DNA from: Brenneria bubanii
GTDB lineage: Bacteria; Pseudomonadota; Gammaproteobacteria; Enterobacterales; Enterobacteriaceae
Reading direction: 5' to 3'
Assembly: GCF_022378355.1 (NCBI RefSeq)
Contig: NZ_JAKMAJ010000001.1
Coordinates: 62,001 to 126,000, forward strand
DNA: 64,000 bases
Shown here: one piece after another, positions 9,473 through 58,686 of the stretch
Position numbering within the stretch: position 1 is the first letter of the stretch
How the letters are laid out: the number at the start of each line of letters is the position of its first letter
Made by a program: the position numbers and the translations under genes
The notes under the pieces: model-generated
What the model was told of the DNA's origin: nothing
Databases searched by the model: none
The model's input: the letters and a program-made list of their open reading frames with translations, nothing else

Positions 9473-9510
9473 CACGCTACCGCCCTTGGCTTATAGCTAC
9501 CAATGCACTC
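9473..9510 (-). promoter_or_regulatory. JUMPStart element with ops site (RfaH recruitment)
   Basis: Reading the minus strand, the segment contains GGTAGCTATAAGCC followed by GGGCGGTAGCGTG. The 12 bases at 9473-9484 are the ops core GGCGGTAGCGTG. This is the conserved leader of RfaH-dependent capsule, LPS and exopolysaccharide operons. The ops element pauses RNA polymerase and loads RfaH, which suppresses termination over long operons. It is correctly oriented and ends 42 nt before wecA, so it should act on the whole wecA-to-rfbA transcript. Confidence 0.93.
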
Positions 9511-55556: not shown

Positions 55557-56273
55557 TTAACTGAAAAATCGATGCCAGTACAATGAAATGGGAATAATAA
55601 AAAACAGCGCGGGCAGGAAGTTTACAACGGCGAAGAGCTTAATCTGCGCGATTCGTAATCCAACCGCAATCATAATCAGTCCCCCGCAGGCGGAAAAGTC
55701 GCCTAACGTGACGACCGTCATAAACGGCATGATCAGCTTGGCGGAAAAAAACAGCAGCGTCTGAATAATAAACTGGGGGATAGCGATCGACATCACCGCA
55801 ACACCAAGCGTAATAGAGAAAATCAAGGCAGTGAAAATATCCAGCGCAGACTTGATAATCAGTAGCTGATAGTCACCACTCAAACCTTCGGTCAGCGCCC
55901 CGACAACGCCGGTTCCACTAGCGCAAAACAATACAATCAGCGCCGTAAAATTTTGTGTATAAACATCCTGCGGCAGACAATGTTCGGGAGTGGGCAATAC
56001 GCGGCTAAGCGCTTGCTGGATCAGCATGCCGGCTCGTTGAACGCCGTATTCCATACGACACAACTCACCGACGGCGACGCCAATGATAATCGCCAATGCC
56101 ACCGCTGGCAGTTGCTGGACTTTAACCACCAACGTGATGCCCATGGCAATAGACACCATGGCAAATGCCGGAGGCAAGCCGTCTTGCAACCGCTGAGGGA
56201 TAAATCGCCGCAGCGCGATACCAAGCCCGCCGCCGATAAGGATGGCGGCACCGTTAATCAAAGGACCAATCAT
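55557..56273 (-). CDS. DUF554 family membrane protein (YqgA-like)
   Basis: Polytopic inner-membrane protein of unknown function. The 238-residue protein has seven or so hydrophobic segments. It begins MIGPLINGAAILIGGGLGIA and contains VLFCASGTGVVGALTEGLSG, both typical of DUF554 (YqgA/YdfK-like) proteins. It lies between the tRNA-Lys repeat tail and nadA, a place where E. coli has no such gene. It is presumably transcribed from a promoter between 56274 and 56410. Confidence 0.85.
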   Translation of the reverse strand: MIGPLINGAAILIGGGLGIALRRFIPQRLQDGLPPAFAMVSIAMGITLVVKVQQLPAVALAIIIGVAVGELCRMEYGVQRAGMLIQQALSRVLPTPEHCLPQDVYTQNFTALIVLFCASGTGVVGALTEGLSGDYQLLIIKSALDIFTALIFSITLGVAVMSIAIPQFIIQTLLFFSAKLIMPFMTVVTLGDFSACGGLIMIAVGLRIAQIKLFAVVNFLPALFFIIPISLYWHRFFS

Positions 56274-56410
56274 GACATTTCCTAACCACTGCTATGCCTA
56301 CGACCATAGAGTACTCCATCAGCGCTCGGCGATGCTACAGTCAGCGGCAAGAGCCTGAAGCCCCTAATATACAGTAAACCCTCAGGTAACGGAAAATACG
56401 CCTCACCTTC

Positions 56411-57017
56411 TCGCTCGGCTCGAACCTGAACGCAGCTTCTCACCCGCACGACATGCGCTACATAAAAATCAGGTGATTTATTTCGACAGAATGGACGAGT
56501 AAAGTAATGGTTGGTCGTGCGGGATGACTCGGCCTTCGGCCTCACCCTTCGGGTCAACGCTGACGCGTTGCTGTCTCGCTTCGCTCGGCTCGAACCTGAA
56601 CGCAGCTTCTTACCCGCAAGACATGCGCTACATGAAAATCAGGTGATTTATTTCGACAGAATGGACGATTAGAGTAATGGTGGGTCGTGCGGGATGACTC
56701 GGCCTCCGGCCTCACCCTTCGGGTCAACGCTGACGCGTTGCTGTCTCGCTTCGCTCGGCTCGAACCTGAACGCAGCTTCTCACCCGCACGACATGCGCTA
56801 CATGAAAATCAGGTGATTTATTTCGACAGAATGGACGATTAGAGTAATGGTGGGTCGTGCGGGATGACTCGGCCTCCGGCCTCACCCTTCGGGTCAACGC
56901 TGACGCGTTGCTGTCTCGCTTCGCTCGGCTCGAACCTGAACGCAGCTTCTCACCCGCACGACATGCGCTACATGAAAATCAGGTGATTTATTTCGACAGA
57001 ATGGACGATTAGAGTAA
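56411..57017 (-). repeat. 170-bp tandem repeats carrying tRNA-Lys 3' ends (rtT-like)
   Basis: Units repeat at an exact 170-bp period: the marker TCGCTCGGCTCGAACCTGAA begins at 56411, 56581, 56751 and 56921, about 3.6 copies. Each unit contains the last 18 nt of the adjacent tRNA-Lys gene including CCA: copies at 56508-56525 (one mismatch), 56678-56695 and 56848-56865, identical to 57018-57035 of the real tRNA. On the minus strand the array is directly downstream of the tRNA. Inside each unit short hairpins (GACCC-GAA-GGGT, GGCC-GGA-GGCC) are visible. The unit length is not a multiple of three, so no repeated peptide is encoded. The architecture resembles the rtT repeats after E. coli tyrT. 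Confidence 0.9.
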
Positions 57018-57093
57018 TGGTGGGTCGTGCGGGATTCGAACCTGCGACCAATTGATTAAAAGTCAACTGCTCTACCAACTGAGCTAACGACCC
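57018..57093 (-). tRNA. tRNA-Lys (anticodon UUU), first copy
   Basis: 76 nt with encoded CCA. Minus strand reads GGGTCGTTAGCTCAGTTGG, anticodon loop ACTTTTAATC, T-arm GCAGGTTCGAATCCTGC and acceptor CACGACCCACCA. It continues directly into the 170-bp repeat array. Confidence 0.97.
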
Positions 57094-57145: not shown

Positions 57146-57221
57146 TGGTGGGTCGTGCGGGATTCGAACCTGCGACCAATTGATTAAAAGTCAACTGCTC
57201 TACCAACTGAGCTAACGACCC
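57146..57221 (-). tRNA. tRNA-Lys (anticodon UUU), second copy
   Basis: 76 nt, identical in sequence to the copy at 57018-57093. It lies upstream of it on the minus strand with a 52-nt spacer, so both are probably cut from one transcript. E. coli has a larger lysT/valT cluster at this place; no valine tRNA is seen here. Confidence 0.97.
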
Positions 57222-57396: not shown

Positions 57397-58167
57397 TCAG
57401 GATGCGGACAGGCGTTTTTGCGCCAGCTTGGCGCTTTCGGTATTGGGATACATTTTTACGACCTGCTGGTAAACGGCTTTGGCTTTATCTGCCTGACCTT
57501 TTTCCTGCATAATCACCCCGACCTTGAGCAAGGCTTCCGCACTTTTAGGCGATTTAGGATAATTTTTTACTACATTGGCAAAGTAGTAGGCAGCATCATC
57601 TTTCTTACCCTTGTTGTAATTCAACTGCCCAAGCCAGTAATTAGCATTGGGTTGATAGGTTGAATCCGGATATTTCTTGATGAAGGCCTGAAATGCGCTG
57701 ATAGCCTGATCGTACTGTTTTTTTTCCAGTACCAGGGCAGCAGCTTCATTGTAATCAGTATTCGCATCACCGGAGCTAACCGGCGCAGCACTGCTATTTG
57801 CCGCCGGATTATCGCCAGCCGCATCTGGCGCCGGAGCGGCGGCAGATGAAGATGAAGAGCTCAATCCATCAATTTGCTGATAGATCTGTTTTTGTCGTTC
57901 AACAACCTGATTCAACTGATACTGGCTTTCCTGAATCTGACCGCGCAGGTTATCAATATCACGCTGAGTATCGGAGAGCTGTTGCTGAAGTTGGGTTAAA
58001 ACCTGACTGTGAGCGTTAGAAATGCGCTCCAGTTGAGTGACTCGATCTTCTACCGAGCCCGAGCCGACATTACTGATTGGCGCTGCCAGGGCAGTAGCGG
58101 CCCAGGGGGCCGCTACGCCAACCAGTAACGACAGACCCAATAAACGATGTCTGAAGTTACTGCTCAT
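57397..58167 (-). CDS. cpoB: Cell division coordinator CpoB (YbgF)
   Basis: Periplasmic protein that links peptidoglycan synthesis with Tol-Pal constriction. The 256-residue protein has a signal peptide (LLGLSLLVGVAAPWAATALA), a trimerising coiled coil (about 40-105, QLERISNAHSQVLTQLQQQL) and three TPR-like repeats in the C-terminal half (YNEAAALVLEKKQYDQAISA and onward). It follows pal by 9 nt, closing the tol-pal operon. Confidence 0.96.
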   Translation of the reverse strand: MSSNFRHRLLGLSLLVGVAAPWAATALAAPISNVGSGSVEDRVTQLERISNAHSQVLTQLQQQLSDTQRDIDNLRGQIQESQYQLNQVVERQKQIYQQIDGLSSSSSSAAAPAPDAAGDNPAANSSAAPVSSGDANTDYNEAAALVLEKKQYDQAISAFQAFIKKYPDSTYQPNANYWLGQLNYNKGKKDDAAYYFANVVKNYPKSPKSAEALLKVGVIMQEKGQADKAKAVYQQVVKMYPNTESAKLAQKRLSAS

Positions 58168-58176
58168 GCGATTCTC

Positions 58177-58686
58177 TTAATAGACCAGAACGGCACGACG
58201 GTTTTTGGCATATGCCGCTTCGTCATGACCCAGAACGGCCGGTTTTTCTTTACCGTAAGATACGATAGAGATTTGATCAGAAGAAACGCCTTTACCCTGC
58301 AGATACATTTGTACCGCATTGGCACGACGTTCACCCAGAGCGATGTTGTATTCCGGTGTACCACGTTCATCCGCGTGACCTTCGATAGTCACTTTGTATG
58401 ACGGGTTACTACGCAAGAATGCAGCGTGGGCATCCAGCATTTGCGCGAAATCAGAGCGAACATCGTACTTATCCAGATCAAAGTAAACGATGTTGTTGCG
58501 CTGTAATTCTTGCATTTGCAAACGCGCCTGCTCAGAAGAAGACGCGCTGCCATTTTCATAGCCACTGCCGTTGGCGGCACCGATGGAAGATTGGTCGCTA
58601 CCGGCATTTTTGTTAGAGCTACATGCGGCCACTGCCAGTACCGGCAGAGCCAACATCAGGCCTTTCAGCACTTTATTGAATTGCAT
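58177..58686 (-). CDS. pal: Peptidoglycan-associated lipoprotein
   Basis: Outer-membrane lipoprotein that binds peptidoglycan and TolB/TolA. The 169-residue protein has a lipobox (LAVAAC) and the OmpA-like domain with [13 protein letters not shown], the peptidoglycan motif [20 protein letters not shown], and RRAVLVY at the end. Confidence 0.98.

Follow-up and report, generated by a model that had tools for sequence, protein, structure and literature searches.

An RtT repeat array behind the lysT tRNA genes of Brenneria bubanii and its possible descent from a small dispersed element

The window, by which we mean the whole stretch of 64,000 nucleotides that was analysed (Brenneria bubanii, contig NZ_JAKMAJ010000001.1, positions 62,001 to 126,000), carries on its minus strand two tRNA-Lys(TTT) genes, which lie downstream of cpoB at the site of the E. 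coli lysT operon. They are followed by a tandem array, and downstream of the array is a DUF554 gene (55557-56273). The features, from upstream to downstream, are:

57146-57221, minus strand: tRNA-Lys(TTT) gene 1 of the lysT operon, with an A51.C63 mismatch in the T-stem (ARAGORN; Rfam tRNA, 73.9 bits)
57018-57093, minus strand: tRNA-Lys(TTT) gene 2, identical to gene 1; the repeated 18-mer first occurs as its 3' end (ARAGORN)
56848-57017, minus strand: RtT unit 1, 170 nt, from the spacer to the tail CCA (RF00391 at 56848-56973, 111.7 bits)
56953-56962, minus strand: unit 1 arm (GTCGTGCGGG), with 10/10 positions complementary to the tail
56866-56951, minus strand: hairpin core of unit 1 (core-only model R1, 87.2 bits)
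56848-56865, minus strand: 18-nt tail of unit 1, with CCA
56678-56847, minus strand: RtT unit 2, identical to unit 1 (RF00391 at 56678-56803, 111.7 bits); its arm lies 170 nt downstream of the arm of unit 1
56696-56781, minus strand: hairpin core of unit 2 (core-only model R1, 87.2 bits)
56678-56695, minus strand: 18-nt tail of unit 2, with CCA
56508-56677, minus strand: RtT unit 3, with 4 changes, 1 in the arm and 1 in the tail (RF00391 at 56508-56633, 102.2 bits); its arm lies 340 nt downstream of the arm of unit 1
56526-56611, minus strand: hairpin core of unit 3 (core-only model R1, 85.1 bits)
56508-56525, minus strand: 18-nt tail of unit 3, with CCA
56377-56507, minus strand: fourth unit, an internally deleted remnant in which the tail is absent (core model R1 at 56377-56441, 32.9 bits)

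The original prediction had described an array of 170-bp spacing with 18-nt copies of the tRNA-Lys 3' end and a mismatch only in the last copy, and this was confirmed by Tandem Repeats Finder (56411-57035: period 170, 3.7 copies, 98% matches, 0% indels, score 1201) and ARAGORN. The near-identity of neighbouring units was also borne out, with no difference between units 1 and 2 over 170 nt. In each full unit a core of small hairpins is flanked by an arm on one side and a copy of the upstream tRNA end on the other, and these two are complementary to one another. The arm sits approximately 90 nt upstream of the tail and pairs with 10 nt of it, forming a closing helix (10/10 complementary in units 1 and 2, 9/10 in unit 3) which is also present in the cmscan alignment. 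The tail of the full units (ATCCCGCACGACCCACCA) is the last 18 nt of tRNA-Lys, with one mismatch in unit 3, and the 3' end of the tRNA itself belongs to the series of near-identical repeat ends. Letters of a GA motif can be read beside the closing helix, namely UGAG and CGAG in units 1 and 2 and UAAG in unit 3, this being a likeness of letters only. Elsewhere on the minus strand of the window, Rfam placed a CpoB/ybgF thermometer at 58138-58276 (138 bits) and a JUMPstart element at 9473-9510 (58.5 bits).

All three full units matched the Rfam RtT model RF00391 above its cut-off of 45 bits and over model positions 1-130 of 130, and the fourth copy scored 21.9 bits, below the cut-off. What follows the lysT tRNA operon is an RtT array, in itself an ordinary member of an old family that is poorly understood. 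The term "rtT-like" used in the prediction was therefore right, and the likeness to E. coli rtT goes beyond analogy to homology, given the RF00391 scores and a K-12 tyrT array which has the same parts: an arm (GGGGAAGGAU-GAG), GGTTCGA, hairpins and a tail (ATCCTTCCCCCACCACCA). The annotated K-12 rttR, 171 nt in length, runs from 7 nt past the tyrV CCA to the CCA of the first tail.

Across the order, a search with strict filters in which the best few candidates were scored per genome found RtT matches (E 0.001) in at least 85 of 394 genomes and matches over the cut-off in at least 65 of the 394; within the genus, 8 of 10 Brenneria genomes had matches. Among the matches listed we tabulated 184, originating from the genus genomes, from 39 genomes of the order which were mostly picked for prior matches and from 4 further rows. 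A usable upstream tRNA was available for 176 of these: Lys (n = 67), Tyr (n = 41), Pro (n = 39), Ser (n = 23) and Arg (n = 6). The other 8 were left out of the counts (3 without sequence, 3 without a tRNA in the stretch and 2 with a cut or distant tRNA). Cores clustered by tRNA class, with 7 changes on the core tree vs 62.5 in shuffles, on a tree of 120 distinct cores and 68 columns in which 26 of the 176 units gave no core and 71 of 117 inner branches were unresolved. In E. coli, near RtT matches were present in 4680 of 5426 genomes, at 1 to 9 per positive genome (median 2), and 18 of these places were on plasmids. Passages of PMC4986893 cite an effect of E. coli RtT on the stringent response, and two S. 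Paratyphi A strains are reported in PMC2658671 to differ in a 175-bp rtT VNTR. An E. coli mutant without RtT and one of the tRNA-Tyr genes is viable (PMC12584984). At one tRNA-Ser locus (L150, G267:C1:1698800-1702500) we observed at least 8 core matches at a spacing of approximately 173 bp, with a T-run hairpin in each unit.

The ends of the units follow the host tRNA closely. In 129 of the 176 units the last 18 nt equalled the upstream tRNA end at 18/18 positions, and 18 more matched at 17/18, compared with a best match of 15 for tails vs other tRNA classes. The 29 units which matched at ≤ 16 positions include several in which the arm-pairable part is retained and the rest is lost. Tails also vary with the host tRNA alleles between genomes, for example CCTTCTCC, CCTTCCCCCG and CCTTCCCCCA for Tyr and CACGCCCC for Lys. 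The arms were compared using an anchor placed solely on the GG..UGAG-like motif, which could be found in 164 of the 176 units (123 distinct; 12 without an anchor). Six host-specific arm positions formed 582 standard pairs with their own tRNA end, vs a mean of 441 and a maximum of 487 in 2000 shuffles (0/2000 reached the observed value), figures which are inflated by kinship as the shuffles leave relatedness in. Within classes, arms matched tRNA alleles for Ser (0/2000) and Lys (0/2000) and weakly for Tyr (54/2000), and there was no such match for Pro (806/2000) or Arg (2000/2000).

A GGTTCGA-like stretch, corresponding to the 5' half of the tRNA T-arm, was found before the core in 151 of the 176 units, so that stretch, core and tail together can be read as a T-arm which has the core in its loop (TTCGA^ATCC). 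In two units (in G126 and G198) the tRNA likeness 5' of TTCGA extends over 25-26 letters. Units starting TAGCTCAGTTGG were considered as possible insertions of the core into whole tRNA-Lys genes, and this was rejected: the model had run across an intact tRNA into a short unit. Separately, a copy in B. alni resembles a chimera of tRNA and RtT.

We also searched for the core on its own, using a model (R1) of 28 cores from which arms and tails had been removed. Besides the tRNA-linked units, core copies were found away from tRNAs in the stretches inspected. These include head-to-tail arrays of a 73-bp element on two contigs of the window genome (C18 and C6) and in G394, G399 and G402, as well as six copies in the 23S-5S spacers of G398 (at L133 and L134 Rfam confirmed the rRNA genes). 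The window genome also has a core element in a 23S-5S spacer (L240, G000:C45:1-700), at an insertion point unlike those in G398 and G399. The 73-mer had 32 matches in the window genome and was matched in at least 18 of 79 genomes of the family, in a search in which the best few candidates were scored per genome. This dispersed repeat of approximately 73 bp is homologous to the RtT core. When four dispersed copies were aligned with Brenneria RtT cores, they did so in the same orientation and above every one of 300 shuffles each; the core of the window array itself (starting GCCGAGCG) is a more distant form.

Filled and empty sites with clean junctions, four vs five and from different species, could be compared. 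Between GAGA-like and ACCTGCG letters there are 70 and 72 bases in the RtT left arms of L075 and L044, and 0 in L038 and L039. Between ACAGA and ATTTGCC there are 73 bases in L133 and L200, and 0 in L240, L242 and L243. The ends CAAAA...GA(G/A)TA are seen again, together with the target GA^A, in 30 RtT units which read TTCGA^CAA. From these sequences we infer that an RtT unit may be a core insertion in a tRNA T-loop.

Several further copies are worthy of description. At eleven loci (L229-L239) in G398 and G395, a 74-bp core sits in a larger dispersed repeat with near-identical surroundings; two flank types occur among these loci, and eight G398 copies have CCAGTG...CACTGG-like flanks. By eye, three tandem cores were seen beside a tRNA-Phe in L145 (G324:C2:779500-782500), inverted to it and bordered by a repeated tRNA-Phe 3' end, and L149 has one such inverted core with a tRNA-Phe at another locus. 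A Y1 transposase was considered as the mover and rejected: PF01797 gave 0 matches in the window genome, a draft of 533 contigs, with controls positive in 5 of 14 genomes.

The lysT locus was compared in ten Brenneria genomes, and in the window species it has 3.7 units. In G395 the two tRNAs are separated by one unit of another type, and after the second tRNA a window-type arm is joined to a core of the dispersed type. G402 has one unit after each tRNA. In G394 there is a chimeric copy, and a unit lying between the tRNAs is followed by integrase-like pieces. G398 has one unit and G400 a remnant. No unit was seen behind the last tRNA-Lys in the inspected stretches of G396, G397, G399 and G401. 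One third of the tRNA-Lys species data consists of a remnant or an absence at the lysT locus, which counts against the explanation preferred below. The prediction had called for a search of related genomes for the unit beside lysine tRNA genes, and units with the same type of core were found beside lysine tRNAs in further Brenneria genomes as well as in Pectobacterium and Yersinia. It had also named random copy number and decayed units in close relatives as evidence that would count against it, and this was seen in part, as the number, type and presence of units do vary over the ten Brenneria genomes and two have remnants. B. alni and G402 carry the window unit type as well, at a second lysine locus where Val-Val-Val-Lys tRNAs precede cysA. 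The window genome has this locus (L067) with no Rfam RtT match there, suggesting that the type moved between the two lysine loci or was lost at one.

Both lysT genes of the window have the T-stem GCAGG/CCCGC with its unusual A51.C63 mismatch, and all three tails read CCCGC as well. CCTGC is read instead in the genome's third TTT gene (C19) and in the 17 lysT copies found among the other nine Brenneria genomes. The arm here has a G opposite the CCCGC tail, and the same arm faces a U in B. alni and G402. The simplest reading of these alleles is that conversion took place between the tails and the tRNA genes; alternatively, CCCGC may have been acquired by transfer from a Yersinia-like donor, and the Yersinia tRNA-Lys(TTT) genes which we examined do carry this allele. 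Should conversion from the array have changed both tRNA-Lys genes, a repeat would be altering an essential gene family.

Two explanations of how the array came to lie at this locus bear on these comparisons. The prediction held that it arose independently at a lysine tRNA, and within this genome the RF00391 model does match at the lysT locus only. Against this, the three units are homologous to RF00391, close relatives of the same core type lie beside lysine tRNAs in other genera, the cores sort by tRNA class, and a weak RtT remnant follows the genome's own tRNA-Tyr (C3:26283-26392, 26.7 bits), so that an independent origin is almost certainly wrong. The prediction also raised repeated integration and excision, in which the tails would be att-like copies of the tRNA end left behind by islands. 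Eighteen nucleotides is the size of a tRNA attachment site, and there is circumstantial support from other Brenneria: in three of the ten genomes (G396, G397 and G399), Pfam phage-integrase domains come directly after the last tRNA-Lys, and broken look-alikes, judged by eye, lie near lysT in two more (G401 and G394). However, nothing of the kind was found beside the array here, where the adjoining frame, which was scanned, is DUF554 and not an integrase. The core, arm and fold are conserved over genera and tRNA classes, unlike scars, and units occur between tRNAs inside operons. We consider it very improbable that the units are integration scars. It can be noted separately that the 3' side of lysT appears as an integration hot spot in Brenneria (L191, L196 and L194, with pieces in L193 and L198).

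As regards transcription, no intrinsic terminator was found between tRNA-Lys and the array at the lysT locus here. In 127 distinct tRNA-unit spacers, a strict terminator preceded the unit in 0/26 cases for Tyr, 13/55 for Lys, 24/25 for Pro, 12/16 for Ser and 0/5 for Arg, vs a shuffle expectation of ≤ 0.05 per class, and in the examples inspected the terminator started 5-11 nt after the CCA. Co-transcription with the tRNA is therefore plausible here but not general. Many relatives behind a terminator retain arm and tail. A few loci had led us to expect that arm pairing would be lost behind terminators, which was rejected, as 55 units with a lenient terminator did not differ from 74 without (p = 0.21). 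The arms contained no excess of G.U (33 G.U vs 35 A.C), giving no support for selection on RNA, and the fold energy of the unit was no better than that of shuffles (z = -0.91). In hairpins with one mismatch, G.T exceeded A.C weakly (13 vs 4, p = 0.049).

These results also bear on what the units do. The E. coli tyrT repeats have been regarded as (Rho-dependent) terminators of their tRNA operon, and the same role for RtT units in general would fit with the lack of an intrinsic terminator before the array here and before the 26 Tyr units. Most Pro and Ser units, however, already have an intrinsic terminator before them, and some operons of other genomes contain units with co-oriented tRNAs on either side, indicating that RtT units are not simply terminators and do not always form the trailer of a tRNA; we judge the terminator role to be improbable. 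A stronger rival, which we still think unlikely, is that RtT is a DNA-level element which is retained as a palindromic repeat, with hairpin-templated replication errors sharpening its inverted repeats so that arm and tail become complementary with no RNA function. Arm and tail matching which is no weaker behind terminators, the frequency of these terminators before Pro and Ser units, the arms without a G.U excess and the core copies away from tRNAs all favour this. On the other side stand the weak preponderance of G.T in hairpins and the possibility that terminators leak, in which case units behind them may still be transcribed. Passages of PMC4986893 also describe RtT RNAs in E. coli and, on Northern blots, in Actinobacillus, and the tandem GA motif of RtT is reported as covarying in passages of PMC7657543. 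For the lysT locus of this genome, RNA release remains the likely reading of the sequence.

We therefore prefer a single explanation in which an RtT array 3' of lysT, release of RNAs, homogenisation of tails and tRNA, and descent from the dispersed core are combined, and we regard this combination as probable. The tRNA transcript would run on into the array, with nothing visible to stop it here, and each unit would fold into a closed multibranched RNA by pairing of arm and tail. Enzymes of tRNA 3' end maturation would trim each tail, yielding RNAs of approximately 163-170 nt. As the tRNA end is itself one of the repeats, recombination or slippage may keep the tails and the tRNA alike, which would explain why CCCGC is common to both tRNA-Lys genes and the three tails. 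The core would descend from a small dispersed element inserted at GA^A, which on landing in a T-loop (TTCGA^ATCC) would give an RtT unit.

More broadly, a small mobile palindromic element may insert at GA^A in the operons of stable RNAs (T-loops and 23S-5S spacers) and elsewhere, and RtT could be the form that it takes on landing at a tRNA. Its arms would be tailored to the 3' end of the host tRNA, so that each of at least five tRNA classes has host-specific arrays, and it could drag the T-stem along by conversion. For this general proposal we see the chances as even. The relatives make it possible to test the purpose of RtT, the reason for the copied tRNA tails and the upkeep of identity between tail and tRNA. 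A dispersed core with filled and empty sites offers a possible origin for RtT, and the loci behind terminators argue against co-transcription with the tRNA as its general explanation. Already known are the likeness of rtT to BIME attenuators, reported in passages of PMC2965389, and the origin of RtT from many tRNA operons, stated in passages of PMC4986893. In the portions of the open-licence literature that were searched, we found no account of the host-matched arms, the split between classes with and without terminators or the empty sites.

Of the known systems, the E. coli tyrT array and rttR share the most with the array described here: tandem units after a tRNA, copies of the tRNA 3' end with CCA, core hairpins, GGTTCGA and an arm complementary to the tail. 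They differ in tRNA (lysine here, tyrosine there) and in period (170 here, 178 there), and here the arm and tail are the tRNA-Lys versions and both tRNA genes have the T-stem mismatch common to the tails. 3'ETS-leuZ of E. coli is an sRNA sponge released downstream of a tRNA, and it resembles the RNAs proposed here in originating 3' of the tRNA within its transcript; to our knowledge, it has neither a tRNA-end copy nor tandem units. REP/BIME and REPIN sequences are likewise small dispersed palindromic repeats, but the array here is bound to tRNA ends and no Y1 (REP-associated) transposase was found in this genome. ERIC and YPAL, which are MITE-like elements of enterobacteria named among such elements in passages of PMC3733652, are short and non-coding and have filled and empty sites. 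The 73-bp core, with its three or four hairpins and its GA^A site, shares these properties and is set beside ERIC and YPAL by description and not by sequence.
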